DNA of 64,000 nt from Imbricaverruca yamaguchii (Eukaryota > Arthropoda > Thecostraca > Neoverrucidae), in contig JAOTOL010001477.1 in the NCBI GenBank assembly GCA_034440575.1, positions 868,001-932,000 on the forward strand, written 5' to 3'. Shown in pieces: positions 3,055 through 49,062 of this stretch; position 1 is the first letter of the stretch; every line of letters starts with the position of its first letter. Below the pieces are notes generated by a model, which ran no database searches, was not told the origin of the DNA, and saw only the letters and a program-made list of their open reading frames with translations. A program made the position numbers and the translations under genes.

Positions 3055-3092
3055 GTGAGTGCCTCAGTCTATGGTGGCTCTGCGTGGCGGTG

Positions 3093-3530
3093 AGCGCGTC
3101 TTGAGCGGTGTGTGTGGGCGCGTCTCGAGCGGTGTGTGTGGGCGCGTCTTGAGCGGTGTGTGTGGGCGCGTCTTGAGCGGTGTGTGTGGGCGCGTCTTGA
3201 GCGGTGTGTGTGGGCGCGTCTTGAGCGGTGTGTGTGGGCGCGTCTTGAGCGGTGTGTGTGGGCGCGTCTTGAGCGGTGTGTGTGGGCGCGTCTCGAGCGG
3301 TCTGTGTGGGCGCGTCTTGAGCGGTGTGTGTGGGCGCGTCTTGAGCGGTGTGTGTGGGCGCGTCTTGAGGGTGTGTGGGCGCGTCTTGAGCGGTGTGTGT
3401 GGGCGCGTCTTGAGCGGTGTGTGTGGGCGCGTCTCGAGCGGTCTGTGTGGGCGCGTCTTGAGCGGTGTATGTGGGCTCGTCTCGAGCGGTCTGTGTGGGC
3501 CCGTCTTGAACGATCTGTATGGGCTCTGCG
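3093..3530 (+). repeat. 24-nt minisatellite, about 18 copies, in MCM10 intron
   Basis: The unit is close to gtgtgtgggcgcgtcttgag plus cggt. It begins about 40 nt after the 5' splice site of the zinc exon and degenerates near 3530. The unit is a multiple of three, so all frames stay open and give spurious repetitive ORFs on both strands. Confidence 0.95.
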
Positions 3531-3812
3531 GGCGAGTTTAATCTGGTATTGACCGGCAAGCAGTGCTGTCATATGGCGCGTGCAGACCGTGTTGAGCATT
3601 GATGACAACCTGAACTAAGCTGACGGTGATGAGCGGTCCTGACCGGTACGGGGAGGGTCCGGTGTCTGGCGCGGTATCACAACCTTGCGACCCGGTGAGG
3701 TGTCTCCGGCCGTCTGGGTGTCCGATCGATCGTAGCGACGCGGACACCAGTCCGATGCTGGCGCCGTCCTTGAGCGTGCACTTACCTGACATTGCCTTTA
3801 CCCGTACTCCAG

Positions 3813-3920
3813 GAGCGGACCGGACCCAAGCTGGACAGCGAGATCCTCTCGATCCGCGGCAACGAGGCCGACCACATCCATAGCCACGTGCGCGACCACA
3901 ACATCAACCTCGAGTTCTGA
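3813..3920 (+). CDS. MCM10: MCM10, last coding exon
   Basis: After the acceptor ccag the frame reads ERTGPKLDSEILSIRGNEAD and runs to TGA at 3918-3920, 35 codons plus stop. TGPKL and LSIRG are the conserved extreme C-terminus of MCM10. It enters in phase 0, matching the previous donor. The four exons here give 233 residues. I saw no canonical AATAAA close downstream. Confidence 0.95.
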   Translation, partial: ERTGPKLDSEILSIRGNEADHIHSHVRDHNINLEF

Positions 3921-5288: not shown

Positions 5289-8200
5289 CTGCTTACACAC
5301 GGCGCCCGTGTCAGTAGTGGCTTTCCTGGCCCGCTGCAGCACAGCAACCTCTGGAGCCGGCCTCAAGTTTGGTATTTATAATATGTTCGGGTTCAGGCAT
5401 AGGAGAAAAGGCCGGAACTTCCGTCACATACCCATCACGATAAAAATAGCCTACAATGACGAGCCACCACTTGTGAGCGGCCGGTCACCGAATGTCCAAT
5501 AATCAATTGAGCCCTGTAGCAAATATTCCGTTAATATAGGTTGTTTTCTGCAATAATAGGACGTTACAAAGAACAGTGCTTTTTAGACATCTTTCCTTCA
5601 CAACGGCTAAGAAACAAGAACGTATTACAACTGCTAACGCGATCGTGCTTCAATCCTATCTAGTCTGTCATCATGGAGCACCGGATACAAACAGGCGAGA
5701 ACATGTTCCCATCCATTCGTCGCCACGGCCAGGTGTGGCGTTCCTGGCGCAACCACTTGGTCAAACCGCAGTAGTTCACCCGTCACTGCCACTCACCCTT
5801 GTCGGGCTCGACCTTCTTCAGGGAGATCAGCAGCGAAGCGATGGCTCGCAACACGAACGACATCTCGGCGATCCGAGGCCTGCAGCCGACCACACGTCAG
5901 TGGACAGCGTTACACACGTCAGCGGTCGGCGTCACACTCCGATGGATAGCGACACACATCAGTGGACGACACTGCACAGCGTGATGAAAAAGAACGGGCT
6001 GTGTCTGTCAGCATTGACGACGTATAGCATTCCGAATAAAGACATTTATTACGGTACTGCGACAAGTGATTTAGCATCAGTGTTTGCAGGTGGTATGCCC
6101 TAGGGGCTTGTATACTTACCGTGCACATTTATTTCACTTGATTTAACTGTGTATTTTATTACATTCTAGCTTTGCCGGAACTGTAAATTCCGGCAACACA
6201 GATCTTAATACGAAACACATGCCATGCATGATCGAGCGCCAATGCTGAGTTGAACGCGAGACTGTGAGAGGGAATGAATAAAATGAACAGGTCGTTGAAG
6301 CGATTTTCTATTCAGAAATATATCGACCATCAATTCGTTTTCATGCATGAAACAAAGACGTTCATCAGGACACATCAGGACATACAAAACGTGCCGGCCC
6401 ACAATTAAACAAGACAACCTGGGAAGGGGAGGCTGTCCACAGATCAAATTAACATTCAATCTAATCGTCTGACTCCCGGCAGCCTCATCCAGAGACGTCA
6501 TCAGCCTCACCTGGGCAGCGGGCACTTGCCGGCCAGCTTGCCGTCGCCAACAAAGCCAACCAGCACCTCGCGGAAGCGGTGCACCAGCGCGGTGACCGCC
6601 AGCTGTGACGTCACGCCGCCGTCGGCGGCCGCGCGCGCCGCCGCTGTGTCCGACTGTAGCGAGAACTGCAGCAGCGTCTCGAAACATGCGTTGGCGAACT
6701 CCTCGCGCAGCCGGGCCGTGCCGTTCTCTGCAGGCCGGGAGCTGCCGTGAGCGGGGGAGTGTCGCAGATGGCCGCACCGACAGACCAGTGAGTGCCACAG
6801 ATGGGCGCACGGACAGACCAGGGAGTGTCGCAGATGGCTGCACCGACAGACCAGGGAGTGTCGCAGATGGCCGCACCGACAGACCAGCGACTGTCGCAGT
6901 GTCACATTGACAAACCGGCGAATGGCCAAGTGTCCTACTGGTAATGAGACGAGTCGCGGCGTCACACTAACCGAGACTCTGGTGTTCGGCCGAGTGCAGT
7001 GAGCCCTTGTTGAGCAGCATCATGACCGAGACGAGGAACTGGCTGGGTACCACGGCCGCGTACGGCAGCACGTCGTCCCGGATCAGGCTGACCACGGCGC
7101 AGTCGAGCGCCTCATCCGCCTGCTGCTCGTCGGGAGTCAGGCTGGCCGGCGGCTCACTGGCAACACACACCACCAGCGGTCAGGTGATGGCGCAGCGTGC
7201 CGTTCACCGGGCGTCAGACTGGCCGGCGGCTCACTGACAACACACACCACCAGCGGTCAGGTGGTGACGCAGCGTGCCGTTCACCGGGCGTCAGACTGGC
7301 CGGCGGCTCACTGACAACACACACCACCAGCGGTCAGGTGGTGACGCAGCGTGCCGTTCACCGGGCGTCAGACTGGCCGGCGGCTCACTGACAACACACA
7401 CCACCAGCGGTCAGGTGATGACGCAGCGTGCCGTTCACCGGGCGTCAGGCTGGCCGGCGGCTCACTGACAACACACACCACCAGCGGTCAGGTGATGACG
7501 CAGCGTGCCGTTCACCGGGCGTCAGACTGGCCGGCGGCTCACTGACAACACACACCACCAGCGGTCGGTGATGACGCAGCGTGCCTTCACCGGGTCGGCG
7601 GCTCACTGACAACACACACCACCAGCGGTCAGGTGGTGACCCAGCGTGCCGTTCACCGGGCGTCAGGCTGGCCGGCGGCTCACTGACAACACACACCACC
7701 AGCGGTCAGGTGGTGACGCAGCGTGCCGTTCACCGGGCGTCAGGCTGGCCGGCGGCTCACTGACAACACACACCACCAGCGGTCAGGTGGTGACCCAGCG
7801 TGCCGTTCACCGGGCGTCAGGCTGGCCGGCGGCTCACTGACAACACACCAACACTGATCATGTGGCTTGTGATAGTTGCGAATACTAGAACCCTGATATT
7901 TGCAACAAAATCTCGATCTGCATGGCGAGACCTTAGCCTCTTCAATGTACCTTAACCTCATACATCTGCAGCAAGCCATATCCTGTACAGCGAGACCATT
8001 GCCGGCCATGCGGCTGGCCATGCCCTGTTCTATCTGACCTCTGCGAGAAGAGGAAGCTCTGCAGACAGTCGGCCAGTCGCGGCCACACGTCTACACTGTG
8101 CTGACGATGTTGCCGCGCCGTGGCCAGCCCCTCCTTCAGCATGTCCAGCAGACAGCGTACGGCCAGTCGCCACGTGGTGGGGGCCGGACATGCGTACTTG

Positions 8201-11200
8201 AGGGACAGCGGCAGCTCCAGCATCTGCGAGTACCCAGTTGCTGGTGATTGGCACGGCCTGGTCGGCCACCAACACGTGCCGTCGCAGCCACGTGTTGGTA
8301 ATAGGTGTGTGCTGGTCACAGACATGCGTGTGCCTGTCCGAGTTTGCTACAGTTGTCTGGGTGTTGGTCAGTCATATGTTAGAAAGCCACAATCGCCAGT
8401 CTACTCACAGAGTGGTGACTGAGTTACAGATGTACAATTCGTGAAAATTGTCATACACAGACAGCTTCTTCGTTATACGTCATACGTAGGCATGAATTAC
8501 AGGCCGTGCGCACCAAAATGACATCAAGAAACCCCTTCGCTTCTGGTCCTCCCCAATCTATGAATACAAACCAAAAACCGTCGTCACTGCAATGATATTC
8601 TCCTTTCCGTTTTATTCGCACTTCGCCATCCTGGAACAACCTAGTGGAGGCCGAAGAGGGGTAAAGTTGACGGCAACCGGCCGCTTGTACCTATATGAAT
8701 CGCCGGCCGGACGTTAGGGTGCGATTTCGGTTGGTCGCCGGCTGGACTAGCCTAGTGGAGGCCGGGGAGGGGTAAGGCTGCCGGCAACCGGCCGTTGATA
8801 CCTGTATGATTTTCTCCAGCACGTGCGACTCGATAACGTCCGTCCGGCGCGCCGTCGCCTTGTAGAGCACAGTTGTGCGCCGCAGCGTCGTCTCGGCGAA
8901 AGGCACGTAGTTCATGGCCACCCAGTCGGTCGTCTGTGAAGGGACGGCGGCAGTCAGGCGGGGGCGGCAGGTGGCAGCCTGCTGGACGGCAAGCTATCCG
9001 TACTGTTGTACATTGTTGACGCTGTGTCGTCTTTCCTTGCTTGCCATAAATGTCACGAGCGGAATGTGGTTTGCGTATTTTACATGCCATGCCAATAAAT
9101 TCCAGTTCATGGTGTGGATACACTGTATGAAACGGAAAATAATCAATGGCAGTATACTAGTTATCACGGGATATACTCAATGGCAGTACACTCGTTATCA
9201 CGTGATATCATCAGTGGCCTTACACTCGTTATCACGGGATATAATCAATGATAGGATGCTCGTTATCACGCTTGTACAATGTATGCACTTCACTGCAATA
9301 TAGCGAAGATTGAGACAAGCTTCACAATTCCCCGTCGTCTTAAGCTGACTAATTTAGTTCATGAAGTTCGAAAGCTTGCAAACTAAAATGCAAAACGTAT
9401 TGTGTTAGAGTAACAGAGAAGGGCCGAGTCGATTTTGTAAAATAAGTGAAATATAAGGCAAAAGTACAAGTGTTTGCTTTTGGGAGTTGTCTGGCACCCA
9501 CATCCTGAAAATGTGCGGCACTGCGGGCAGGGGCGTCAGTTGAGCAGCTACCTTGCCGCGGGCGGGTCCGGCCGGTCGGGTCGGCACGTCTCCGTAGGTG
9601 GGCGCCCGGCACCCGTACCGAGAGAACGTCAGCAGCTGATCGAATAGGGCCGGCACCAGTCGACTCACTGGCTCCGTGTCGCTCAGAGCGCCCTGGACAA
9701 CAGCAGGCGCACTGGTTACACCGCCAAACAACGGGTGTACGCCGAGCAGACTTAGCGCGCCGCGGGGACGCAGGTGGCACGAGGGGGCATACACGACCCG
9801 CCCATAATACACATTCCGCCCGTGCTGAGATCAAATTAGGCTCACTAAAACAGAACTACGACAGGATGGCTGACAGTAGTGCGTTTTAGTAGGCACTAGT
9901 TTCCGCCTGAAGGGCCCGGCCCATTCAGCAGGCGCGTTAATGAGCCACCGTGCAAATGAGGTGAGATCATGGTCAATAGCGGACCTGTCACGTTCAACCC
10001 TCGCCACAAAGCAGCACCTACCTTCTCGACGGTGTCTAGGCAGGCGATGATGGCTGCCTGCAGTTTGGTGAGCACCACCTCGGTGAGGGACGGCAGGATG
10101 AAGGGCGATGCCTCACCGTGCACGGGAACCGCCACGGCCCGCTCCAGGATCGAGCACAGCTTGCAAAAGTCCTCCGATTGGAACCTGAGCCGGGAACGCA
10201 GTGAGTCGGGAGCGAGACCACAGACGGCGCCGGGCACGCAGTGAGTCGGGAGCGAGACCACAGACGGCGCCGGGCACGCAGTGAGTCGGGAGCGAGACCA
10301 CAGACGGCGCCGGGCACGCAGTGAGTCGGGAGCGAGACCACAGACGGCGCCGGGCAGCGGCAGTCGGGAGCGGAGAGACCACAAACGGGCCGGGCACGCC
10401 GTGAGTCGGGAGGCGGGCCCAGCGGCGCCGGGCACGCAGTGAGTCGGGAGCGAGACCACAGACGGCGCCGGGCACGCCGTGAGTCGGGAGCGAGACCACA
10501 GACGGCGCCGGGCACGCGTGAGTCGGGAGCGAGACCACAGACGGCGCCGGGCACGCAGTGAGTCGGGAGCGAGACCACAGACGGCGCCGGGCACGCGACA
10601 ATGGACGGCGGGCGCGTGTATGGTGTGGGAAAATCTCACGGGAGATAAGCAGGGACCACACGGAGTGATCAATTGCGATACGAATACCTGAGGCTTTGGA
10701 ACAGTCACAATACATCCATACATCAATCACGGGATACTAGGTGGAATGAGCGCGGAGTGTAAGGGGTGACTGCTCGGGAAAAACACGGAGGCATTCATAG
10801 GTGCATATGAGCCGAGGAGCATTCCTCTAGGCTAGAATACGAAATGGGGGTACAAAGGAGACAAAGCGTGAGCAAAACGTGATATCGAAATTGAACAAGG
10901 AGGCATGTGAGAAGTCCATTCAATGGACGGCTGGACATTTAATTGCCCTTGCCTCCACGACGCAAGGGCAATGTATTAATGGAGAATATGGAGGCCCATG
11001 CGCCGTTCCTTTTCCAACATTTAACATCGCATAGTAATCGGCCATGTTGTTTATTGAATTAGTGCAGGCTAGATGTAGTTCGGAGCTCACCTGTATCTGA
11101 TGTGCTGGAACATTCCGGGGAAGATTTGCACCAGCGCTGTGAGGAACGGTTGTGACGGCACGTACACATCCGAGGCGGGTCCACCGGGCGGCGGCGGCTC

Positions 11201-14145
11201 CGTCACACCGGCGCCGATGTTGTGCCACACCTGGTCACAGACAAGTACCGACGTTGTGCCACACCTGGTCACAGACAAGTACCGACTTTGTGCCACACCT
11301 GGTCACAAACAAATACCGATGTTGTGCCACACCTGGTCACAGACAAGTACCGATGTTGTGCCACACCTGGTCACAAACAAGTACCGACTTTGTGCCACAC
11401 CTGGTCACAAACAAGTACCGATGTTGTGCCACACCTGGTCACAAACAAATACCGATGTTGTGCCACACCTGGTCACAGACAAGTACCGATGTTGTGCCAC
11501 ACCTGGTCACAAACAAGTAACGACTTGTGCCACACCTGTAAAAAATACGTTTGCCACACATGGTCACAAACAAGTACCGATGTTGTGCCACACCTAGCCA
11601 CAAACAAGTACCGATGTTGTGCCACACCTGGTCACAAACAAATACCGATGTTGTGCCACATATGGTCACAAACAAGTACCGATGTTGTGCCACACATGGT
11701 CACAAACAAGTACCGATGTTGTGCCACACCTGGTCACAAACAAGTACCAATGTTGTGCCACACCTGGTCACAAACAAGTACCGATGTTGTGCCACACCTA
11801 GCCACAAACAAATATAGATATTGTGCCATACCTGGCCATAAACAAGTACCGATGCCACACACAGCCGCAAACAAGTACCGATATCATGTCACATATGCCC
11901 AGAAGCGCGAATGCTGTCCGACATCTAGTCATAAACAAATACCGATGTTACGTATGCCACACTTGACCAAAAACAAGTACGAATGTTGTGCCACTTCTGG
12001 CCACAAATAAGTAGGGATGTTCAGCCACACCTGCTCACAAACAAGCATGAATTATGTGCCACAACTGCTCTCAAACAAGTGCCACTGTTGTGTGATATGC
12101 CCAGAAACGAGTGTAAATGTCATGTCACATTTGCCCACAAACAAATACCGATGTTGTGTCGGACTTGCCCACAAACTGGCACCGGCGTTGCACCTCAGTC
12201 GTACTAAATACGCCACTCACCACACTGGAAACGTGCCACACCCCCTGGCAGCAAACCGACCTCTATGATAACATATAAGGGCCCCCAAAACACATCAGCT
12301 ACTCTGATAACACACATATATGTGAGCACACGATAAAGTCAATTTGCAAACATCAGCAGCCAAGTGGTATACCAGCGGTCCCAGACGAAGAAACTTGGCA
12401 TGTTCTACGATGCGCTTGGCTGCGCGGTCCATGTAGCGTCGGCATTATCTTACGGCGTACGGTTGCGGGGAATCGAGTAAACTATTCTGCGCATACAAAA
12501 TATGCACACCGATATACCAACCACACATATGCACCATTAATACATTTCAACACCAAGTGTTCGCAAATATGGCTACCTCAGTATATGCAAATTACATCGC
12601 CATAAGTATGGATGCTACTCACAAACGGTTCCAGGACTTGCCTGAGCGGTGGCCCACAACAATAACTCTCAACAGAGCCGACATAAGAGTTCAATGCTGC
12701 AGTAGTTTACTCCATCCCAGCTTCTCAATCCTGATTAATCACAGCCTTCGTGGCAGGATAATTTCGCAGCAGTAAAGAGGACCACGTACCCGCCACGCGG
12801 CGTTCCAGTTGACCTGCGCGTCCTGCTCCGGCACCAGCGGATCCGTGCCATTAGGACTAGCTTTGCCAGAAGACATGATCTCCTGGAAAGCCTTCAGCGC
12901 TGCCAGTGACACCTGTCGGCAAATAGCTCAGTATCTAGTGGCTGCGATGGCAGTCAGATGTCGCACACACTGCAGCACGTCTCGCGGCTCAGCATGCACA
13001 TCAATGGTACATCAAAGGCACCTTCCACGGAAGTTGCACGCGGTCAATGATCCCATCCTACACTCACTGCACAATGCTTGCAAACTTAGTCCACTCCATA
13101 TTAATTCATTGTTAATTCGCACACAAAAATCAACATCTACGACCGATATGACTTTAAACAGAACGTTGCTCACAGCAACATGCGTATAATTATCTACCAT
13201 TAATATAGTGTGATTATACACAGTGAACATACATATGAACTGCATGCAAGCTACTTTGATAGATGCAACTGCATCTGTAGATTAGCTGCATGCAAGCAAA
13301 TAGATGGACACCATCAACACCACACAAACGCACACACACACACATACACACACCAGAACACCACCACGTTGTCTGTACCTCATCGTTCTCGTTGAGGGCG
13401 GCGTTCTGTATGAACTCCAGCAGCAGCGCCCAGGCGCGCTGGTAGTCAGTCAGCGCCGACAGGACCGCCCTCTTGGAGTGGAACACGCGCGCCACCCCGG
13501 ACAGCGTCAGTACCTGGAGGGAACATCACTTCAGTCAGCTCGACAGTGACACTACTCACTGACTGTATCGTTACATCTTGTTCTTCTACGTCGGGCTGGC
13601 GTCACATCCACGTCGATTTGTCGTACAAGGTAAATAGCTGATAGCTTTCAGCAAATAGCCAACAACAAATAGCCACCGATCATAAGACACAAACCAGCAT
13701 AAGACGCCATTATGTCACTGGGGGAGCGAGGGCAAGAGACAGCGGACTGCAGAATTCTCCTGCTGCAGACACCGGATCGGGTACCAAACAGCGAATGGGA
13801 ATTGGCGAGCCGACCACAACTGCACTCTCTTGACAGCCTGTGAAGGCATCCATTATGCCTCAAACCTAAAGCACTTTGCCAAAGTGTCTTTGCCAAGGTT
13901 CTTACGTATCACAGCCATTCCGTCCAGTATATGCCGCGCACAACCTTTCAGCAGGAGGGACGGCCCACATCAGAGACTGCCAGGCTGTGGGGCATGTGGT
14001 GCAGGTGGTGCATGCCGTCACAAGGTCACCTGGCAGTGGCTGAGAATTACGTGCCCGCTGCGAACCAATATGTATTGTAAGCATGTTGTGGTGTAATTGT
14101 AAGGATGTGTATTGTGTATTGCATCTTATTATAGATTATATACAT

Positions 14146-14214
<69 letters not shown>

Positions 14215-17200
14215 ATATTCTTATATATTATCTGACTATGAAAAGTAGGAAGAAGTAGGAAAATTAGAACCTGAAATGTTGCATTGTGCAGAGAAGCGAT
14301 GTTGAAAGTTGACCGCCAGCGGAAAAGCTGCCGCAAACCTCCTTAGTTAGCTGGTGTGATTTAAGGGCGCGTCGACCATTCCGTTGATCATACCACCTTT
14401 CTTTCAGTACAGATTCAGCACATTTCATGAAGACCATTTGGATAAGAATTGGAGAAAAAAATCAAAATTAAGGGCACATATCTGATTTTGAGTGAGAGAT
14501 GATGTAACAGGGTGAGAAACCAAGCAACAAATCAAAGGTCGTTACGGTTTCAAACGCGTGATGGTCGGGTCGGCAGAGCCGCTCAGATGAAACTTTTTCA
14601 CCACATACCCAGGATTCTTTGACCATATTCACCATATATACGGGAGTCGATTCGTTCGGGCTTGGGGATAGCTAATGATCAGCACATTAGATTAAACAGC
14701 TCCGCAATGAGAACAACACGAACAAAATTACTCAACAGTACCCCCTTTTCATATTGTGACCATAACACAACTTTTGCTCTCCAGTGCATAGTAACAAGGC
14801 GAAATCTGGGCATACCGCCAACTGTTAAAAGCCTCAGGATGCATGGCAGGCGTTGGCGCCAATCCCAGGCAGCACAGGCGTTGTCGTGATGCTGCCTCCA
14901 CAGAACTTCCACATCCATTGAGAACACAACTCGGCCTGTGGCCGGGCAACTCACCTGAGTCTCTGCCCACTGTTTGTGCGCCGTGTTGCGCGAGTGGTGG
15001 ATCAGTATGTTGCCGCCGGTGTCGTCCTTCTCCGTGCTAGCCGAACCCGACATGGTGCGCACCTTGTCCAGCAGCGGGAACAGCACCTGTGCACACCACC
15101 ACACGTCACCAGCCACGGATACAGCACCTGAGTACACCGCCAAACGTCACCAGCAGCGGACACAACAGCCGGAACACCACCTGTGTACACCACCCACCGA
15201 CACAACAGCCGGAACAGCACCTATGTGCACCGCTACACGTCACCAGCCACGGACACAGCAACCGGAACAACACTTGTGTACACCGCTAAACAACAGCCAC
15301 GGACACAGCAGCCCAGAACAGCACCTGAGTACACTGCCACGCATATGGAAGTGGGAACGGTACCTGAGTACACTGCCACACGTCAACAGCAACGGACACA
15401 GCAGCCGAAACAGCACCTGAGTACACCGCCACACGTCAACAGCCACGGATACAGCAGCCGGAACAAAACCTGTGTACACCACCGCACATCACCAGCCACA
15501 CATATGGCAGCAGGGACAGCACCTGAGTACAACGCCACATGTCGCCAGCCACGGACACAACAGCCGGAACAGCCCTGTTTGAGCAAGAACACCGAACACC
15601 CAGTTGGAATAAAACGATAGTGACTCACTTGCAATAATCCACAATTTAACACGTGTCCAATTATAAAGGAAAAAATAACGTGAAAACAATCTGATACAAG
15701 TACAGGCTTCAGGTACAGGATATTCATTAACGTAGCGTGAAAGGCATCGGTGCCGTTCACCCTTAGAGGAGTTGATTAGTCTGACAATAAGGGGGGACGG
15801 ATGAACTGTTACCTCCAGTTAGCACAGGCAGCAGTTCTTGGTTCTTTCTGGAGTTCTTGGATGACATAGATAGTAGTTGGCGGCCATTAGCTAATATATT
15901 GGATCAGGATTGGAAGCACGGCCTTGTCCTATATGTTCGTCATCCTGGACATTATCTCCTTGTGGAAAATATCGACTCATTTGCATTAATGAAGTTGTTT
16001 GAAAATAACTGCAAGCTCACTAGTTTGTTAAGCATGCCTGAAACTGAAGGCAAGGTACATGTAGCTATTTATTCCCAACAGATGAAGAACAAAAATATTT
16101 TCCGACTTGGAATATCCCTAAATTTTCATCTCCAAATCAAAGATTTCAAAATTAAATCAAACCTTGCATGGAACAGTTTGCTGTATTCGGTAAGCATGGC
16201 TACGTTCGCTAGCACACAGGTGACATCCACGCCAGTTACCTGCCACAGGACAGCCTGCCAGGTGGTGTGCTGCAGCAAGGAGCCGTGAGCCGCGATGGTG
16301 GAGAACAGCGTTTGGCCCGCAGACTTCCGCACCGCCGGACGACTATCCACACACAGGTCACCTGTTGACCCAAGGCAGCGGAGGTCAGCATACAGGTCAC
16401 CTCTAAACCAAGACAAATTGAGCGCAACGCACGGGGCCAGTTTATACCAGGGCCAATGGTGGTCGTTCTACCTGTAAAGTGGCTGTCGCTTTGTGCTGAG
16501 AAGGATAAGCTACAATATTATGAAAGCTATAATATGAGGTTCTCTAAAGTGGAAGAGTTACCAAGAGTTACCAAGCACCAAAGTCTACACTGGTGACGCA
16601 AATGCGTCGCGTGCATACCGTACACCTGAACCCCTACAAGTGGAGGTGACCAACCCCAGATCAGACGAGTCCCACATCTGTCGCCTCTGTTCGAGGCGTG
16701 TTCTCAGCCGGAGAGGAACTACTGTTCTCTGAACACCAACAGGGTACATTTACCACCTCTACCGCAGGCACAATGACTCCCTCACCGAGTCTGGCGAACA
16801 AGCACATCCAGAGTCGGTCGAACGGCGGCATGTTCTGCACGCCTGGGAACTCCGGGAACACGCCCGCTTCGGCCGTCAGACAGCTGCGCAGTTTGTCCTG
16901 GCTTTGGAAAAAGTAGTCCGAGATGTTCCACTGAAACATACCCCAGCGTCACGTCATAAGAAGCGACACTAATCAAACATGCAACAAGGATCTCCACCCC
17001 AATCCCTGTATCGTAGGGAAAGGCGGTCACATCGTTTTCTGAAATATAGGAACCAAGAAACCAACGAAAAATAAGAGCGGCCAAGTATGTCCTGGAAAGT
17101 GAAAAAACATGCTTATCAAGTCATGAAATTGCATTGGTACCCCATGCAAAGAAAATTCCAGAAATACGTTGGCCGCCACATTTCGCCGCTTCCAAGGTCA

Positions 17201-23200: not shown

Positions 23201-26200
23201 CATGCTCTGCCTCAGCAGTGTTCTGGGCTGGCCCGGCGCCGCCGACGTCCGGCTTAGCGACTACGGCAGCCGGGACGGACTGGCCGCCGACTGGCTCGCT
23301 GCCGACCAGCGACAACACACTCGGTGGTGGTGGTGTGTCGACACGACCGACATGTAACAGTCTACAGACGGAACAATCCGACTACAAAATCGCAATTGTA
23401 TCCTGAGCATTACAACATGTTTGATAATTATGATGATCTGCTTTCAGAGGAAGGTCCAAAGAACAGCATTAGTGGTAAGTACAGGACTCACGCCGCTGGG
23501 ATTGACACACTCCGCTGACAAATGAAACCTTGCTGTCATGACAAATCACCCGGTCAAGCTCCGGTCACAATCCAGAGCCGAGAACGAACACGTTATGAGC
23601 CCAACTGACATTAACGTCAACAACACGTCACCACGGGAGACTTCGCGTCCCAGCCCTGCAGACCTCACACGGGGATCGCGGGGTCACGTGGGCCGGCTCA
23701 CGGCGGCAGGGTGACCTGACCTGGCCTGGTCAGCGGCGGGTCGGCGCCGGCTCGGGTGGCAGCGCTCGCTCCATGATGAGCGACAGCGAGCGCACGATCT
23801 CGATGAGGCAGGTGAAGGCCACGGAGGCGCCGTAGCCCTCGGCGACGGCCGGCGGGTCGATTTTGTCCAGCATCTCGAGACTGTAACGGCGTCGCGGTCG
23901 GCCGCGGGTGAGAAGGGTCGATCTGACTCAGCCACGTGCTCACGGCACATTTGCAACGAACTCAGAATCGCACTAAAGAACTGAACATCGTACAGCGTGG
24001 ATGGAGATCAGCCCTCGAACTGAGGTGTCATGACGCCCATATTTGTTCAAAATATCTTATTCAAAAAGGAAACATATGGCGGAATTTTTGATGTGTTCAC
24101 CCACCATAAATAATTCAATCGTTTTGTTTTCCTCCCATTCCATTGTCACGCAGCTTCGCACAACACCGACAAAATGATACCAAGAGTTGCATGTGGTGTG
24201 GTCCAGTCATAGGCATAATCATTAATTGGCCCAATAGCATAAGCTGTCTCTTCTGCTGGTTGGGCATCACGACTAGCGGAACAGATTGCACCACTAGTGT
24301 GCGATGCACTCACTAGGTGGCCTTGGTGGCGCCGGGCGGGAACGACACCGCCAGAGGGATCCACACGCCGCGGTAGTAGAACGCCGGCTGCGGTGTGACG
24401 CCCGGTCCCACCGGCATGCCGGCCAGCAGCGACGGCGGGTGGCCCTGGGTGACCGTCGAGCCGGAGCCTGCAACCAGAGAGCAGCGGACCATTGCCAGTC
24501 TCCACTCAAAGTCGGTGAGGATATCGGCAGTCAAGGGTCTGTGGACTAACAGACCTCGACAGGATGTACTTTTCTTTCAAGAGGCGCAGCTAAGCAATTG
24601 AATGAATTATCAGATTGAGATGAAATTAGGCCAGGAATTTCACCACAATGAAAACACTTAATCGCGTGAATTCGGCTCCAAAATTATCCACAAGAGTTGT
24701 GCATACGTTTCCTAGCGACAAGCACAAGTTTGACATCAACGCACAAGTGATGCCACGCAAAATTCGCGCATCACACACACATACACAAGTTGAGCCAGTT
24801 GCAACTGAACGTTGCAATGTCGCGTTCAATTAATGCGCGGTCAGATTTAATGACATTTAAGTGGTGCTACTCTCCAAATTTTCAATATCTGGTTTGATAT
24901 AAGTCGTGAAAACAAATTCAAAGCACCGCAGTCGCACTTGCCGACAACGTTCGGAACCGTAACCGCATTCACGGGGGAGCTCTGGACCTCAGCCGCACTC
25001 ACGGGGAGCGCTCGGGACCGCAGCCGCACTCACGGGGAGCGCTCGGAACCGCTGCAGTACTCACAGTGAGCGCTCGGAACCGCTGCAGTACTCACGGGGA
25101 GCGCTCGGGACCGCAGCCGCACTCACGGGGAGCGCTCGGAACCGCTGCAGTACTCACAGTGAGCGCTCGGAACCGCTGCAGTACTCACAGGGGAGCGCTC
25201 GGGACCGCAGCCGCACTCACGGGGAGCGCTCGGGACCGCTGCAGTACTCACGGGGAGCACTCCGAACCGCTGCAGTACTCACGGGGAGCGCTCCGAACCG
25301 CTGCAGTACTCACCGGCAGACGAGAAGGCGCCCGTTGAGTCACGAACAAACAGACTCTGCACGTACGCGCCCAAACTGTTGACAATGTCCTGCCGGCAGC
25401 CACACAGCCATCGTCGGCACAGTACAGCGGAGCCGACCCGACTATCAGGCGACCTCACTATCCATCACAGATCATTCGGCAGTCACACTGTCCATCACAG
25501 ACCGCCCGGCAGTCACACTGTCAATCACAGACCATCCGGCAGTCACACTGTCCAACACAGGCCACTCGGCGGTCACACTGTCCATCACAGACTATCCTGC
25601 GGTCACACTGTCCAACACAGGCCACCCGGCAGTCACGCTGTCCATCACAGGCCACCCGGCAGTCACACTGTCCATCACAGACTATCCTGCGGTCACACTG
25701 TCCAACACAGGCCACTCGGCGGTCACACTGTCCATCACAGACCGCCAGGTGGTCACACTGTCCATCACAGACCGCCCGGCAGTCACACTGCCCATCACAG
25801 ACCGCCAGGTGGTCACGCTGTCCATCACAGACTATCCGGCGGTCACAGTGTCCATCACAGACCGCCCGGCAGTCACACTGTCCATCACAGACCGCCCGGC
25901 AGTCACACTGTCCATCACAGACCGCCCGGCAGTCACACTGTCCAACACAGACCGCCCGGCAACACAGACTATCTGTCCAACACAGACCGCCAGGCGGTCA
26001 CACTGTCCATCACAGACCGCCAGGCGGTCACACTGTCCATCACAGACCACCCGGCAGTCACACTGTCCATCACAGACCACCCGGCAGTCACACTGTCCAT
26101 CACAGACCACCCGGCAGTCACACTGTCCAACACAGGCCGCCCGGCAGTCACACAGCTAAGCAGCCGTGTTCAACGATGACGCAGCTACTCATTGACATAT

Positions 26201-29200
26201 CATAAATGATGTATTACAAGTTAGCCCCACCAGGGAAAAAGGTAGCTCACCCTTGAATGTAACACGTCAAATAACGAGTATCGCCACAGACAAGCCTAGG
26301 AAAATGCACTGCATAATACATCAGCCACTACGGTCGCAATGTCATGTCTGGTTTGCTGAGTTATTTGAGTTTCAAGACGTATCACCTGCAATGGTGATAT
26401 AACACCATGTACCATCTATGTTAGTCAGACCGACTAGTATGGTTCAAAAGCAGACCAAACGACAATGCTATATCAGGTGGATATTTTTCGCACGGTGTGT
26501 TACTGAGAAACATAAATGGCAGCGACTTCAGCCCGTGACGGTGTATGCGCCAAGCGCTCGCCGAGACTCGCCTGCACGATCTTGGTACTGTGCGGCTTCA
26601 TGTCGTAGCTGGTACAGAAGCTGGTGAGAATGTCCTGCTGCACGGACAGCTTGTGGATCACCTCGAGCGCCACGGCGCGCTGCCATACGGGCCGGTCCGG
26701 CTCCAGCAGGCGCACCACCAGCGAGAGGAAGATCTCGCACTGAGTCACCTGTGGAAACGGGCCGTGGGGGGATCTCACCCTGGTCCACCTGCGGAAACGG
26801 GCCATGGTGGGGATCTCAGACTGAGTCATCTATGGAAACGGGCCGTGGTGGGGATCTCATACTGGGTCATCTGTGGAAACGGGCCATGGTGGGGATCTCA
26901 CACTGGGTCACATACGGAGACGAACCATGGTGACTACCTCACACTGGATTATCTGTGGGAACGTGTTGTAGGTGGAATATCACACTGGGTCAGCTGTGCA
27001 GATGGGCTGTGGTGACGATTTCATACTGGATCATCTGTGGAAACGTGTCTTGCTTGGGACCTCACACTGAGTCACCTGTGAAAACTGGCCATGGTGCGCA
27101 TGCTGCGTTGGATCATACAAGAAATGGGTCGTGATGGGGACTCAGACTGGGTCAACTGTGATGGGTGGGGGGGGTTAGTGGCGCGTCGTGGGTCAACTGT
27201 GAAGAGAGGCCGTGGTGAGGATCTCACACTTGGCCACCTGTGGAGACGGCCACCAGAACTGGTGTGGATTTCACATTTGATGCCTGTCCACATGATGTAT
27301 TGCACCAGACAAATATCACCTTCTAGCATAAGCTCATTCACGATGTGATGATGGATATCGTTTCGATGTCAATCAATAAAGCAGCAAACCAACGAACATT
27401 TTCTTTACAGCATGCAGAAAACACTATGCATAAAATCCTGATGCAACATTACCAAACACACGATTGTCAACATAGGCGCATCATGCAAATAATGCAGTTC
27501 ATAGGCCTCACATGCTATTGCGCTTGTGATCGTTCCCATTCACTGACAGACAGAGAGCGCCATCCATCATAATGCACAGCCAGCGGTCAGATCCGCTTAG
27601 CAGCAGCACGTCTGCAGAGCCACAAAATTTCGTTGGGGACGAGTGGCCTAGGGGTAAGTTACTCGTCTCACAATCGAAAGGTTGTGGGTTCGAGTCTCAC
27701 CTGTCGCTACTCTTTGCCCGCGACCAATCGGCGTGAGAGATTGGCGACGCTACATGACTTAAGGGTCGATGTGTCGTAAACCAATAACCAACCAACAACC
27801 ACTATTTCGTTCGACAGGGGACAGGGGACAGGACAGGGACAGGGGGAGATGCGGGGAGAGGGACGTATAGCCTGAGTCTGGCCGTTGGTGCCGACACTCA
27901 CCAGCAGCGGGTAGAACTTCTGTATGAGCACCGACACCACGCGCAGCAGTCGCATGCTAATGGGGAAGTAGGGCTTGTCGTGCGGACTGGGCGGCGGCGC
28001 GTGCGAGGGCGCCGCGCCGCGATGCTTCAGGTTGGGCGAGAACAGTCGAATCACCATGGCGCACACGCGCTCCTTCAGCAGGAAGCCGAACTCGGGGTGC
28101 TGGCGGCGAGACACGGCGGCGCCGGTTACAGAGCGGGTGCCGAGGACGCTGCCTGGCACATGAGCGGGTTAAAAACCATAAGTCCAGGGATGCGGAGCCG
28201 GGAACATTTTGGACGGCACCGGCTCCGGCTCCGGCTCCGCATCCCTGCACACGTCGGTTGCAGGCCGCCATCATGTGCTGACTTCTCGCTATCGTGCGCT
28301 CGTGTGACGCAGGGAACGGATATTGGTGGGGCTTCGAAGTGCTTTCAACATGTGCTGGGACGAAATTGATTCGCGTGTCCTTCCAAACGGAATGATTTCA
28401 CAACCGGGGAATAATATCTGGTTGGAGAAGAAACCTACAGCGCTTGCTTTAAGGGTGCCATTCATTAATCTAAACATTGGCCATGAATTCAATCATATTG
28501 ATTTACGATGCATCATATTCTCATATAACAAATCAAAGTAGTTAACAGAATTGTCAGCTGAAGAATATAAATTCGAACGTCTTGAACATTGGCCCTGTCG
28601 CCCGAAGGCTTTCCATGATATTTTGTTCCTCGAAACATCCTAAGCAAAGTATCAGTTGCTCACGAGGTGTGCCGCCAGCTTGTCCCATCTCCGGGCAATA
28701 GTACTCACCTTATGAAACACGCCTGGGAACGAGGTGAGGATGGACTCGATCAGTTCCAGGCCAAAGGTGCGAGTCATCTCGGTCAGTCCGGCTAGCCAAA
28801 ACGGCTGCTCACCGTTCACCAGCTGCACCAGGTCCTGCGCACGGCTTCAAGTTAGGTCAGGTCAGATCTGCTTCAGGTTAGAGATGTCAGCAGGTAACAG
28901 ATGTTGCTGGAGCGGTATGTCACTGGTGTGTCAGAGAGCAGCTAGAGACGCCGGATCGCATGGTTATCATCCCTATCCGGCATCTTTGGGCACGAAGGGC
29001 GGGGATGTATGGGCATGGCCAACCTTCACTTAACCAATACCACACCTCAGCCATGACTAAACATGAGGCCCTAGCATATGTGTAACAGAGTGATGATTGT
29101 ATCAGCATGCATATCACTATTGTTGCACAATCTATACTAAGAAAAACTGTCTTCATCCTGAAAGCCACAATCAAATATTTTCAATGCGATGTCTAATATG

Positions 29201-31371
29201 CTCCAATATTCTACCAAATGTCTGCAATGCACCAATAAGTGTTGGAAAAACTGGCATTTGTTGGTGTCAAGCATACCAATACATTTTGTACTCCATAATC
29301 GTGACTAGACAAAATGAAATATTTTGTACTTCAGAAGGGAAAAGGAAGAACGACATTGTTTGGTTAAGTGCTACCACTCAAAGTCCATACATGAAAACAA
29401 ATAGCAGTTGCAGCAGTACCAAAATCACCGACCCGTCAATGACCACAATAGAACTAGACGACATTCGGATCTGTTGGTATCGGTGTTGTTTGTCTGTTTT
29501 AGCGCCATTTATGCGCTAAAAACGTCTCCGCACCGCACAAATGGCGTCGCGTGACGTCATGCACGAAGACGCTATAGTTATTGGTTGGTTGGTTATTGGT
29601 TTTACGACACATCGACCGTTGATTCATGTAGCATCGCCAATCTCTCACGCCGATTGGTCGCGGGCGAAGAGTAGCGACAGGTGAGACTCGAACCCACAAC
29701 CTTTTGATTGCGAGACGAGAAACTTACCCCTAGACCACTCGTCCACGAAGACGCTATATAGAAGACCCATGTAAGAAGACACTATTGTGTCAACATAGTC
29801 AATCATTAAATCAATATTTATTCAAGATGTATTCAATGTTGATTCAATATTCATCAATATTGATTCAATGTTGATTCAATATTCATCAATATTTATTATA
29901 ATATACGATATATTTAGATTAATCGATATCTATTCAATATATATTTTTAGATACTTGTGCTGGAGCGTTCGCCAGGAAGTACCAGAAATCCATAGTTGGC
30001 AAATCTGGGGGTACTTGGTATCGCCGGAGTAAATACTTGAGGCCTTGTTTGGCCAATAAGGTGCTTTGAATGCGTAATCGAAGGTCATTTTGTTAAAGAG
30101 ACAAGTTTTTTAGACACAAATCACTTCAAATTTACGAAAATCGGCCTCTGAGAAAGCAAGTTCTCCGAGGCGATTACACCAAGAAACCAATGTCATTTGT
30201 GCACTTACGCATGACTGTCATATATTTGTGTTTTGTAAATGTGCGCGAAGATAAATCATGCGCCTTGAAATATAACTGGATATGGGGTTCATCAGTGTCA
30301 GTGAAGGGTCCGTAATACGTGTTCCAAATTTACTCCGAGCCACCAACTGTTCGCCCGCCCCTTGATCAGCTGTCCTTCTAGTGCTGGGGTAAGCAAATCC
30401 GACCAGCTCTATTTAACAAACAAAAAAAAAAACCGCCTATGAGCCATTTTACAGGGGCAATTTGCTCTCCAGTCTAGCAGCTCTGGATCCTTCCAAGTCG
30501 ATCCTTGCTTCAACTAAGCATTCCAGACATGAACTAAACAAGTATATAAAGGAACTTTTAATATGAATAAGAATCGGTTTCAGTCATTTTTCTCAGCTTT
30601 TTCATGCAAAATGACTATTTATGGTGGTGAGAATAAAACTATTTTAGACGGATTGTTTTAGTATATTTTTCATGAAACCATTTTATATTCCAAAACCAAT
30701 ATCCAATAGTCACATGGGGTTTGTTGTATCAGTTGTGCGTTGAGCCGGTTCCGGGTGTTGGGTGTGCATTTGTGAACTTCGTTGACATCGATTAAGTATA
30801 CTTTTGTTATCATTTTCTCTGCCATTGCTCATGAAGTTGGCTTATAACCTCATCTTTCGCTAATAATTTAACAACAGCCAATTTTGAGGTCTGAGGCAGA
30901 ACTGTGTATTATGCCTCGGTGGCGAATGGTGCGCACAAACTCGGAATGGCGCAAAGGTTGACCAGGGCCATGAAATGTATTTTGGCAGTGCTTGAGATTT
31001 GGGAAAACAACGGAAGTTAGTAATAATTCAAATGAGCCGCGGCTGAACTGGGCTCATTAGTTGTGGAACTAGTCCTTCGGAGAAGTGTTTGTTGAAGGAT
31101 GATCCTGGTTGTGTGGTTCGCCCAAGATGAGTTTGAGTGCGATTCATCCTCAGCTCTCCCAGGAGAAATGTTATTGGTGTATTCACATCACATGATGCCT
31201 ATTTATCATAAATATCTGTTTGTGAACTTTGAGAATACATCACCCACCTACACTCAGGAATATTTGGGGTACTTTGGCTCCTGGGGGCTTTCCCAATAAA
31301 TATATTTCCTGGCAAAAATTAACCTATTTAAAAATTTTTTTTTTTAAAAAATTCTAAAAAAAAAATAAAAA

Positions 31372-31442
<71 letters not shown>

Positions 31443-31547
31443 TTTTTTAAAATAAAAAAAAAAAAAAATAAAAATTTAAAAAAAATTAAAAAAAAATTAA
31501 AAAATAAAAAAAAATATTTTAAAAAAAAAAAATAAAAAAAAAAAAAA

Positions 31548-31579
<32 letters not shown>

Positions 31580-34500
31580 CATTGGTTTTTCAGCCCCACT
31601 AAAACAAGGTTAATTGTCAGCAAGTGCATAGCTATTTTTTGCAATCCAGCTAAAAAATTCGTACTCCAGCTACAAATTGTGTACTCCACTCCCAAGAAAG
31701 AATATGGAAATCCTGCACTGATGGACACCATGCATGAAAGGTAAATACATAATTTAGTTTTCACACGATAATATGGCAGTCGTGTTAGCTCCTCGTCGCT
31801 GCATTTGGGAACGGGGGGCTGTTGGAACATCAGGCAAACAGTTAGTAAATAATTGCTCTGTACTGTGGTTTCCACGATGTTGATGACATTATCACATAAT
31901 CGATTTTCTGTCAGTCTGACCAAACCTGAAAGAGGAGGTATGCATCGGCTGCTGCCTGTTGCAAGGTTTTCGGCGGAGCTCCGCTGGGCGTCTTCAGATA
32001 CTCCAGGTCAGCCGGCTGAGACGCCTCCACCTGTGTATTAAAACGCCGCGTCAGAGAACATTCAAGCAGGGACCAGACGTCAGTATGCTGGTCAGGACCA
32101 GACGTCGTAGCGTCCTGACCAGACGCGTGCACTGGTCAGGACCAGACGTCAGTATGCTGTCCTGGACCAGACGCCAGTGCACTGGTCAGGACCAGACGTC
32201 AGTATGCTGGCCAGGACCAGACGTCAGTATGCTGTCCTGGACCAGACGTCAGTATGCTGTCCTGGACCAGACGTCAGCGCACCGGACAGGACCAGACGTC
32301 AGTATGCTGTCCTGGACCAGACGCCAGTGCACTGGCCAGGACCAGACGTCAGTATGCTGTCCTGGACCAGACGCCAGTGCAGTGGTCAGGACCAGACGTC
32401 AGTATGCTTTCCTGGACCAGACGTCAGTATGCTGTCCTGGACCAGACGCCAGTGCACTGGCCAGGACCAGACGTCAGTATGCTGTCCTGGACCAGACGCC
32501 AGTGCAGTGGTCAGGACCAGACGTCAGTATGCTGTCCTGGACCAGACGCCAGTGCACTGGCCAGACCAGACGTCAGTATGCTGTCCTGGACCAGACGCCA
32601 GTGCAGTGGTCAGGACCAGACGTCAGTATGCTTTCCTGGACCAGACGTCAGTATGCTTTCCTGGACCAGACGTCAGTATGCTGTCCTGGACCAGACGCCA
32701 GTGCACTGGCCAGGACCAGAAGTCAGTATGCTGTCCTGGACCAGACGCCAGTGCAGTGGTCAGGACCAGACGTCAGTATGCTTTCCTGGACCAGACGTCA
32801 GTATGCTGTCCTGGACCAGACGTCAGCGCACCGGACAGGACCAGACGCCAGTGCACTGGCCAGGACCAGCCGTCAGTACACCATCCATAAGGCGTTAGCC
32901 GTTGTTGTCGAGCATCTCACTACGCCCGCGCATGATAATCGAGCCTCTCACCACGTCTGCACATGATCCTCGGGCCTCTCACTACATCTGCACATGATCT
33001 TCAGATCTCTCACCACATCTGCACATGATCATCGGGTCTCTCACCACATCTGCACATGATCGTCGGGCCTTTCACCACCTATGCACATGATCCTCGGGCC
33101 TCTCAGCACGTCTACACATGATCCTCGGGCCTCTCAGCACGTCTGCACACGATCGTCGGGCCTCTCACCACGTCCGCGCATGATCCTCAGGCCTCTCAGC
33201 ACGTACGCACATAATCCTCGGGTCTCTCACCACGTCTGTGAATGGTCCCCGGGCCTGTCGCCGGGCCCGATCATGGTCCCCGGGTTTCTCACTCGGGCCT
33301 ATCACCATGGCCGACCATGGTCCCTGGGTCTCACACCACGCCCCAGCATGATACCGGGTCCCTCACCACGTCTGTCGTTGGCTGCCGGCCGTCCTCGGCG
33401 ATGACTCGCTCGAACACAAGCGAAACCAGCTGCCGGACGGTGGCGCCAGCCGTGTTCATGATCGTCGAGTCCTTGCAGAAGCATAGCCGGAAACACAACG
33501 CCAGTGCCTGCCGACCACAGCACAGGTCAGATGGGTGATACCTTGGTTGGAATTGCGCATCGTAATTCTGGATGTGAAGAAGATTTTCGGCAATCGAATA
33601 TGGAGTGTGCTTCTCTACAAACGTATGTCTTCTGAATCTCAGCTCGCACTTTCCAGTGCATCTTGAGCATGGTACCACAAGCCAGTTAATTGTCAAACAG
33701 CATCATTCAATCCTGAAATGAGAGCAATGAGAGGATAATCTTCTGGAGAGGCAACTGTTCAGGATGCTTTATTTTAAATTCAGGAACAGCCAATATTTCC
33801 AACCCTGGTGACAAGTCCCGGCTGATCGGAACAGGAACAACATCAGACAGTCGAGCATACTCAGCCACCTCACAGGGAGCCACTACACTTCGCTAAGTAA
33901 GCCGGTGCTATAGTGTGGACTCTGGCTAGCATCCGCGGACAGCCAAGAACCACTAGATGACCGGTTACTGTACGTCACATTTCTGCGGTTACTGTTGCTG
34001 TAAAAAGCAGCCGCGTCGACGTAGGAAATATGCAACACAACAGAACGCACTGAAGCATTACACCCTGACGAGATATTTGCCCCTGAAGCTGTGTGCACCA
34101 CAGGGAACGTCTGTATGGCTTCAGTTGTAATTTGAACTACCAAGTATTTAAATTGTAGTTGTTCTTGTTCTTTTGCTAATAGGTCGTTATTTAAATCAAG
34201 CGGGCATTGCATGACAACGCAACAACACAACATACAATGTGAACACAGTAATGTGGAGCCAAGGAACAACATTGATTATTCAAGCTTGTTGCCCTAAAAC
34301 ATTCCATTGAAACGAGCTAACCAAAAGCGTTCGTGTTTCTCTGGACGATCAACTAGTACCGTACATTGACCATGACGTCATCATGGGCGACTAACCAGGG
34401 CCACACCCTGGCCAGTGTCTCCCTGGGTGACACTGGCCATCCCTCACCACATAATCAAGGTCGTACTTCGACACACCATCTCCCTGGGCGAGTGACAAAG

Positions 34501-37500
34501 GACATACCTTGGCCAGAGTGTCTCCCTGGGCGACTGCACTGGTGGTCAGCAATAGGGTGACTGTCTGCAGCAGCTTCACCTCTTCGATGTTATACTTCAT
34601 CAGACTCCACACTGTCTCGGTGATGTAGCCGGCACCCTTGGTGTCCACCGCCTGCTGCAACACTAGCCGCTGGACGGTGCCCAGGCATTGCTGCCGGCGG
34701 CGCCGACGTCAGTGTGCGCCAGACGGGCGGAGCCTGGCTAAGTGTGTGTCAGATGGGTAGAATCAGGGTAAGTGTGTGCCAGCTGGGGCAGAGCTTAGTC
34801 GGTGTGTGCCAGATGGGGCAGAGCTGAAGTCAGCGTGTGTCAGATAGGTCAGAGCCGGGTCGGTGTGTGACATATAGGTCAGAGCTGGGTCGGTGTGTGC
34901 CAGATGGGGCAGAGCTGAAGTCAGTGTGTGACATATAGGTCAGAGCTGGGTCGGTGTGTGCCAGATGGGGCAGAGCTGAAGTCAGTGTGTGACATATAGG
35001 TCAGAGCCGGGTCGGTGTGTGCCAGATGGGGCAGAGCTGAAGTCAGTGTGTGTCAGATAGGGCAGAGCTGGGTCGGTGTGTGACATATAGGTCAGAGCTG
35101 GGTCGGTGTGTGACATATAGGTCAGAGCTGGGTCGGTGTGTGCCAGATGGGGCAGAGCTGAAGTCAGTGTGTGTCAGATAGGGCAGAGCTGGGTCGGTGC
35201 GTGACATATAGGTCAGAGCTGGGTCGGTGTGTGACATAAAGCAGAGCTGGGTCGGCGTGCGACAGTTCTTGGGTAAATGTGTGTTAAACGGACGGCAGAT
35301 CAGTGAAAACCATAGGCGATTTCAGGGCAGAACAGTGATACATTATTCGTGACATAGGGTGGAATATACAACTTTCTGAACACTGAATCGACATCCCCCA
35401 ACGAAGTATCGACATCGTGTTTCGTCATGAGTCTTTACATCTAATTTTGAATAGCATCTTGTTGATATATACCATGCTTATGTACATCACTGTGGTTTGT
35501 AATGCACAAAAATCTCTTAGCACAATTCCAGGTAAGTGGAGTACCTTTGATGTGGTCTGTTATACAATATTACTTGATAAGGATATGTATTTTGAATCGT
35601 TATTGCTAAAATAATGGTACAGATATATCTAAAACAAAGAAGAGGGCACACATGTAAGGATGTTGGTGGATCAAAATTGTGTTTACAGAACTTATAAGTC
35701 ACACTAAGCGACATCGTTTCCATGACGAATTTCGACATCCTACTGTATTCGTTTCGACATGTCGCAACCGAAGAAAATCAATTATTTTAACACTGAAGCA
35801 GAATGTGCTGCAAACCGGAAGACCACCATCATCAACCCACTAATATGATGCATCCTGCAGCAATGCATCCTGTAGATTTGCATGAAATGAAATGAAATTC
35901 ATTTCATGCATGTCATGGCTTCAAAGCTGGGTGAAGAAACATTCACAATCATGAACAAGAATCATGGAAAAGAAAAGCATTGCTGCCCCGGTAGCTCAGC
36001 TAGTTACAGTGCTGTCCTGCACAGGTCTCCCCTGCCCTGTCAAGACATGGTTCGAGTCCCTTCACGTGCTTACATTTAGCACGTGAACTGTCTGGGAGGG
36101 TCAGTTGGCAACAAGCCCGATAAGGTCAATGGAGAGCTACCAGGACGGCCGTGTCGGTGCATTGATGGCGCGTAATACTATCAGTCACCATTCTGCCATT
36201 TAACTGCAATAGGATAGTGAGGCCAGGGTTCATGCAACAAGCTCTGCTTAACAATAAAATCCTGGTTGATGATCCAATCCTGGTTCACCCAGGAAGAATC
36301 ACACTGAATTTCTTCATCACCAAGATCCTCGCATGTGTGCCCTTTTCTTTGTTTTAGATGTCTCGATACAATTATTTTAGCAATAACGATTCAAAATACC
36401 TATCCTTATCAAGTAATATTGATTGTATAACAGACCACATCAAAGGTAATCTATTTCTTTAAAGAAAAAAGCAAAAAAGGCAATAACTTTCCTTCAACTT
36501 GAAGACTATGTACCAGGAAGTCAAAGCAGCACAGTATAACTGTCGGGATGATTGTTTCTCTTGTGTGCAGCATACATCATGCAAGGATGTAACTAACTAC
36601 ATTGTGCAGTAATAAACTATTTTCTGAGCACTGAATAAACATCCTTTCCCAAGAAGAATCGACATCGTGCTTGCTGATGTGTGCTTATGACGTTTTCATG
36701 ACTCACTTTTGAGTATGACATGCATAAATATCATGCTCACCATTATGCATTGTGATGTACAAGCATCTCATGAAATAATTCCAGTTACAGAGATTATATA
36801 TGATGTGGTTTGCTGAGCAGTATCATCAGCTGATATTATGGTTTTGTAATTGCCATCATTAGCATAGGTATCTCTATGGGTCAGTGAGGGGTATTTTGGA
36901 GATAACTTGCAGGACTATGAGATTCAGGGATATAATATGTTTTCGTGCAATAGGGGTCCAGCAGTGAAAGGGGGTGGTGTAATGCTCTATAAAGACATAA
37001 AAGATTAGTGCAACTATGAGCCACAAGGGATGCACTCTGTACACTCAACCAATTGCCCACCAAATCCGTCGATCAGCCCTCCCTGTAATACTGAAAAGCA
37101 AGCCCTCTATTCTTATAATGATTGTCTATGCTGTTTTTAAAGACGTTCAATGTGCCGCTACTTACAATGGTTTCTGGCAGCTGGTTCCAGTGTTCTACTA
37201 CCCTGTTGGTGAAGAAAAACTGTTTTAACCTTGTTCTGCTGCGGTTAACTTTAATTTTGAATTGATGACCTCTAATGGCGTCATTTCTGTTAAATTCATA
37301 CATTTCTCCAAGTTATCCCCTCCCCAGACCATGGACAAATACAAAGACACCGATGAGATCTCCTCTCAACCTCCTATACCGAAGCAAAAACATATTGAAG
37401 TTCTTCAATCTTTCCTCATATGCCAGGTTGCTTATACCATTAACCATTTTTGTAGCCCTCTTTTGTACTCTTTCTAAAAGCCAACAACCTTTTTCATAGC

Positions 37501-49010: not shown

Positions 49011-49062
49011 ATGCTACATGTCACCGTTTTATATCTTGGCGATGTTGTTTCAGATTATCAGG

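Follow-up and report, generated by a model that had tools for sequence, protein, structure and literature searches.

Why do many of the minisatellites in a barnacle gene lie against the edges of its exons? The question is raised by the MON2 gene of Imbricaverruca yamaguchii, which lies in a stretch of 64,000 nucleotides (nt) of contig JAOTOL010001477.1 (assembly GCA_034440575.1, positions 868,001 to 932,000 of the forward strand). We refer to this whole stretch as the window and give all MON2 coordinates in it. At 10 of 60 MON2 junctions, and at 3 of 78 junctions in five myosin genes of the same genome, the tandem repeat unit runs across a real junction and contains bases of the exon as well as of the intron, as in the structures termed mirages in amphioxus. 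The explanation that we consider the most probable, with a fair amount of doubt, is that the MON2 arrays are barnacle counterparts of amphioxus mirages, that is, ordinary tandem duplications in exon flanks rich in guanine and cytosine (GC) that are tolerated at junctions.

Copies of splice junctions in the MON2 gene

The MON2 gene extends from 42119 to 5119 on the minus strand and consists of 32 exons, which were located by tblastn and whose junctions were read from the sequence. The assembled protein has 1621 residues, and its two top database matches are the MON2 proteins of the barnacles Pollicipes pollicipes and Amphibalanus amphitrite. Identity is 86% to each, and the best local alignment covers 100% of the query for Pollicipes and 69% for Amphibalanus. 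Both ends were determined for 28 introns, and the joined protein was aligned across these with both orthologues; the alignment is free of gaps to both at 26 of them. Exons 4 and 5 meet in a variable stretch, with a one-residue gap relative to Pollicipes and three further on relative to Amphibalanus, and the Amphibalanus model has 5 extra residues exactly at the exon 30/31 junction. The extra residues fall at intron 30 (5880-6510) and look as though an acceptor 15 nt upstream had served. Intron 8 apparently has a GC dinucleotide at its donor (GTGCAG/GCGAGT, at 26571, the exon 8 donor), and the joined protein shows no break there relative to either orthologue. Scoring covered 60 of the 62 junctions, all but the exon 11 donor and the exon 12 acceptor.

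For each junction, 1.5 kb of the intron side was searched for the best copy without gaps, and the reach of this copy into the exon was recorded. Controls (n = 754), in which junctions were compared with gene stretches 3-25 kb away, gave a 99th percentile score of 10 and a maximum of 18. The output of Tandem Repeats Finder (TRF) for the window comprises 74 rows, and the arrays described next, all on the minus strand, were found both by TRF and by the junction copy score unless stated otherwise.

Exon-edge bases are copied together with the splice site at six acceptors and four donors. The highest score (335) belongs to the exon 29 acceptor (exon start 7156), which is crossed by a 77-nt array at 7131-7848 with 26 exon nt in the unit. 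The exon 24 acceptor (exon start 11230, score 222) has a 34-nt array at 11214-12092 with 17 exon nt, and the exon 13 acceptor (exon start 22435, score 94) has a 121-nt duplication at 22411-22628 that includes 25 exon nt and amounts to one junction copy, identical over 30 nt. Lower scores were obtained for the acceptors of exon 21 (exon start 15086, score 40; 53-nt array at 15072-15578, 18 exon nt) and exon 8 (exon start 26748, score 26; 41-nt array at 26731-27096, 18 exon nt). Among the donors, exon 17 (exon end 18640, score 254) is crossed by a 31-nt array at 18258-18658 with 19 exon nt, and exon 13 (exon end 22164, score 36) by a 34-40-nt array at 21992-22184 with 21 exon nt. The exon 27 donor (exon end 8802, score 32, 8 exon nt) was identified by the copy score and has a single further copy 111 nt downstream, within 8676-8816. 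The two weakest cases are those where the score of 18 equals the largest control: the exon 15 acceptor (exon start 20659, 6 exon nt), with degenerate copies over 20640-20857 that TRF reports only as a row at 20772-20857, and the exon 4 donor (exon end 33367, 9 exon nt), where degenerate copies continue a 31-nt array (TRF 32908-33256) up to the junction, in all 32908-33380.

Other arrays approach a junction and have no exon base in the match. The 31-nt array of the exon 9 donor (24969-25313, score 94) and the 15-nt array of the exon 15 donor (20339-20396, score 15) both start at the GT itself. A 40-nt array at 10189-10596 stops 4 nt short of the exon 25 acceptor. TRF also places two arrays that do not span a junction, a 30-nt array 20 nt from the exon 3 acceptor (34711-35265) and a 25-nt array 39 nt from the exon 5 acceptor (32070-32878). 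A copy for the exon 9 acceptor (score 12, 1245 nt away) was set aside as chance. The exon 1 donor scores only 8, though the 16-nt arrays downstream of exon 1 hold GTAAG-like words. Arrays of a related 16-nt unit (GTATGCGCAAATGTAC-like, in both orientations) are spread over several places where the window is rich in AT (40444-40898, 41108-41919, 48221-48530 and 48873-49002), and one of them starts 95 nt from the exon 1 donor.

The original prediction had matched the repeat unit to the exon edge plus splice site at 14 junctions. Ten of these stand, with 6-26 exon nt in the copies. The match does not hold at donors 9 and 15, where no exon base is included, or at acceptor 20, whose score of 11 (19/30 matches) is at chance level because such a score is expected in 60 trials; donor 3 is marginal, with a copy score of 11 yet 22/30 matches in a fixed 30-nt comparison. 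The acceptor 25 array was absent from that list. The further claim that units differ in length and sequence was borne out, and the lengths given agree with TRF except that the 52-nt unit is one of 53 nt.

Positions of arrays relative to splice sites

Coverage in introns is inflated by tandem expansion, and arrays were therefore counted once, at the founding unit. Among the 30 MON2 arrays collapsed in this manner, 17 are 50 nt or less from a splice site, compared with 6.4 expected when arrays are placed in any intron (p = 5e-5) and 10.2 when each is placed in its own intron (p = 0.003). An overlap of 10 nt or more with an exon is seen in eight of the 30 (one of them a minor 17-nt row at donor 14), with 1.8 (p = 2.5e-4) and 3.0 (p = 0.0035) expected under the same two schemes. 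Composition has to be considered as well, since collapsed introns have a GC content of 56.6% in the 50 nt next to an exon and of about 43% at distances above 150 nt.

MON2 drew attention because it is striking, and an independent sample that avoids this bias was obtained by searching the same genome for myosin heads and analysing five myosin genes. Their 78 junctions, outermost ends included, were called by homology ends and splice-site scores and not from full gene models. The three junctions with exon-including copies are a donor of a myosin V-like gene (39-nt unit, ~20 copies), an acceptor (53-nt unit, ~4 copies) and a short case of 12 nt at a donor that was called with uncertainty; two further arrays come within 9 and 12 nt of a junction and take in no exon bases. 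Collapsed myosin arrays are found within 50 nt of a splice site in 11 of 29 cases (3.4 expected under uniform placement) and span a splice site in 3 of 29 (1.2 expected). Two high myosin scores (138 each) were not counted as mirages, their source being a duplicated alternative exon, and neither was a low-complexity 10-nt shift (score 15). A muscle-type myosin gene (L031-L032) has three similar copies of one myosin-head exon, an arrangement that we take to resemble the mutually exclusive exons of arthropod muscle myosin.

We then have to ask how much of the excess is due to composition. In a regression with flanking GC in the model, MON2 and the myosins together give an odds ratio of 4.07 for proximity (bootstrap 2.36-9.03) and of 3.38 for spanning (1.51-6.07), and the myosins alone give 3.47 for proximity (1.45-9.50). 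Arrays more than half exonic and arrays of near-single-base composition were excluded from the regression sets beforehand, and two MON2 arrays, one of them that of donor 4, were dropped for having their retained unit inside another array. The MON2 set then has 16 of 27 arrays at most 50 nt from a splice site (5.1 expected under uniform placement) and 8 spanning arrays, the donor 14 row among them.

Several results weigh against our explanation. Junctions are less often repeated than the interior of introns when repeats are measured by base coverage, an excess emerging only with one count per array: in the fixed 30-nt comparison with a threshold of 22/30, 10 of 60 junctions are repeated (a set that includes donor 3 and omits donor 27, which reaches 21/30), compared with 28.9% of purely intronic positions. 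In favour of our explanation, the corresponding figure for purely exonic positions is 0.6%, and exon interiors are thus almost never repeated. Placement matched for GC expects 13.7 arrays near a site (p = 0.09) and 5.3 overlapping an exon (p = 0.10), neither significantly different from the observed numbers; this test leans against a signal because its pool contains the arrays' own retained units. For the myosins alone, the spanning odds ratio of 2.13 (0.01-5.68) is not significant. Junctions are spanned more often in MON2 than in the myosins (p = 0.016), which composition alone need not explain; this gap partly reflects the choice of MON2 for being striking. None of the six MCM10 junctions in the window has a spanning copy. 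They belong to what is, by its resemblance, probably the end of an MCM10-like gene at 1-3920 (plus strand); a 24-nt array at 3090-3524 begins ~36 nt downstream of an MCM10-like donor and includes no exon bases.

Some of the same results would fit a reading in which composition and chance are sufficient, with minisatellites growing in the GC-rich DNA around exons and MON2 picked for having many of them. The GC gradient, the GC-matched p values of 0.09-0.10 and the lead of MON2 over the other genes all agree with this. We nevertheless think it improbable, since the proximity odds ratios adjusted for GC are 4.07 (2.36-9.03) with MON2 included and 3.47 (1.45-9.50) in the independent myosins.

The opposite possibility is that duplications have a junction-specific mutational cause, through co-transcriptional R-loops, breaks at the exon-intron edge, or slippage on CAGGT or GTGAG words. 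Such a cause is possible, and the persistence of the proximity excess after adjustment for flanking GC (odds ratio of about 4) speaks for it. Counts of donor words point the same way and are suggestive only. Across the 767-Mb assembly (1430 contigs), CAGGTGAG occurs 69,181 times compared with 21,727 for the reversed word, and pairs 20-50 nt apart number 15,019 compared with 2,715 (0.217 and 0.125 per single word), so that the excess of pairs is above the single-word ratio. Within 264 kb of the window's contig, GGTGAG or GGTAAG is present in 13 of 139 arrays compared with 6 for the reversed words (11 and 3 without MON2). Against this, a few giant arrays, in particular on contig C66, inflate the number of pairs with their copies. 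GGTGAGT at 13-nt spacing shows no excess genome-wide (130 compared with 149), and longer donor words in the same 264 kb give no more forward than reversed arrays (GGTRAGT 1 and 2, AGGTRAG 1 and 1). Spanning arrays are few in the myosins, and the GC-matched placement is not significant. On balance we regard a junction-specific start as a minority explanation. A wider form of it, in which splice junctions in this barnacle lineage are hot spots of tandem duplication owing to R-loops or to breaks linked to splicing or transcription, seeding much of the genic minisatellite content at exon edges and providing raw material for intron gain and sliding, is speculative to a similar degree. The C66 array itself (38-nt unit, ~21305-24839 of that contig, >3 kb) carries CAGCAG/GTGAGT in nearly every unit among those listed and is a candidate giant donor-bearing array.

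The original prediction had asked for the positions of arrays, within 50 nt of splice sites, to be compared with random intron placement, and on MON2 and the five myosin genes the comparison yields an excess over uniform placement. The crowding of arrays at splice sites is thus supported in both data sets; for its claim that duplication starts at the junction as such, the non-significant GC-matched placement stands against the GC-adjusted odds ratio of about 4. That the arrays derive from a transposon family or from an assembly artefact is hardly credible: this analysis found no point in its support, the units show no relation to one another, each agrees with the edge of its own exon, and other contigs of the assembly carry arrays like these.

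Decoy splice sites and a proposed tolerance of the arrays

If the repeat units carry splice signals, how is the correct site chosen? Judging from the protein, the true site in these arrays would be the exon-proximal copy, i.e., the first GT of the array at donors and the last AG at acceptors. Neither a first-come rule nor a scanning rule fits both positions, whereas exon definition does. With splice-site scores derived from MON2's own sites, one or more decoys match the true site in score at donors 13 and 17 and at acceptors 8, 13, 15, 21 and 24, while the true site is stronger than the decoys at acceptor 29 and at donors 4 and 9. The splice dinucleotide (AG or GT) is kept in 74 of 86 copies in 8 arrays, as it is in mirages; the donor 9 array, with no matched exon bases, is one of the eight.

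The original prediction also raised selection for decoy splice sites, which could, for example, buffer or regulate splicing. A weak indication in its favour is that the dinucleotides are slightly better conserved among copies than the other columns (0.94 compared with 0.87 in the 8 arrays, p = 0.023). The array with the most copies, that of acceptor 24, has the reverse pattern (0.84 compared with 0.88), decay of CpG may lower the other columns, and use of array sites would mostly shift the frame (the nearest decoy would do so in 8 of 11 cases). We consider such selection very unlikely.

Ordinary duplication in exon flanks would operate as follows. Stretches of 15-121 nt would be duplicated in tandem and would then expand, the founding step probably being slippage or unequal exchange. 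Founding duplications would fall preferentially in the GC-rich 50 nt beside exons, and some would consequently span an exon edge; the array positions, the exon bases in the units and the excess over uniform placement are what is observed here. A duplication that spans a junction would leave one exon whole, with a splice site of its own, the surplus edge and site becoming intron, as the contiguity of the protein with its orthologues suggests. Spanning duplications would survive where exonic ones do not because one full exon with a splice site remains; a duplication within an exon would not be tolerated. The spliceosome would have to pass over decoys about as strong as the true site, and exon definition, with sites paired across a short exon, is the most likely means.

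Some further features of the window were noted, the first two by eye. Dispersed copies with a tRNA-like head, in both orientations (18863-18960, 27636-27800 and 29581-29755), resemble a tRNA-derived short interspersed element, and a long inverted repeat at ~2458-2602, nearly perfect and with a short loop, looks like a foldback or miniature inverted-repeat transposable element. The open frames at 49012-49308 (plus strand) and 50998-51384 (minus strand) resemble V-ATPase subunit e and a bublin-like coiled-coil protein, respectively.

Comparison with known systems

Ordinary GC-rich intronic minisatellites consist of tandem degenerate copies. The MON2 arrays share their unit size, degenerate copies and GC richness and differ from them in the excess at exon edges and in the exon bases of the unit. 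Among the matches listed in the open-licence literature, no title or beginning of an abstract describes minisatellites at exon junctions in a barnacle or any other crustacean, and neither "tandem" nor "minisatellite" occurs in the main text of the Pollicipes genome paper.

The closest known structures are found in amphioxus. Minisatellite-like duplication of intron-exon boundaries, seen earlier in Adh3 and termed mirages, occurs in the globin genes BflGb6 and BflGb9 (PMC3087553), and troponin C and PGBD5 were later added to the mirage genes (PMC3902484); both cite Canestro et al. 2002 as the primary description. Length and somatic instability of mirages are reported in PMC3087553, with a proposed role in intron gain. 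The statement in the original prediction that no system of this kind had been described was therefore mistaken, and the link to intron gain had also been made before.

In these papers mirages are described for a small number of amphioxus genes, and a crustacean gene with about ten of them suggests that they are not confined to cephalochordates. The density of its arrays makes MON2 a good place to study how a gene tolerates mirages, and the gene provides a natural test of how the spliceosome rejects many intact decoys beside the true site, and of a possible contribution of such tandem duplications to intron gain. In the AGGT tandem-duplication model of intron gain (the Rogers model; PMC4974935), an exonic segment is duplicated to form a new intron. 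The MON2 arrays have in common with it a tandem duplication that copies splice signals, and differ in that existing junctions are duplicated.

The MON2 arrays resemble amphioxus mirages closely: both are minisatellite-like tandem repeats across donor or acceptor boundaries, with copies that retain AG or GT and, as far as the predicted MON2 protein indicates, with no apparent effect on the product, and the units are of similar size (10-160 bp in amphioxus, 15-121 nt in MON2). The barnacle arrays are known from the DNA of one assembly, whereas length and somatic instability are on record for amphioxus. They differ further in their barnacle host, in the presence of about ten in one gene, in the 6-26 exon nt that they include, and in a measured bias in their proximity to splice sites.

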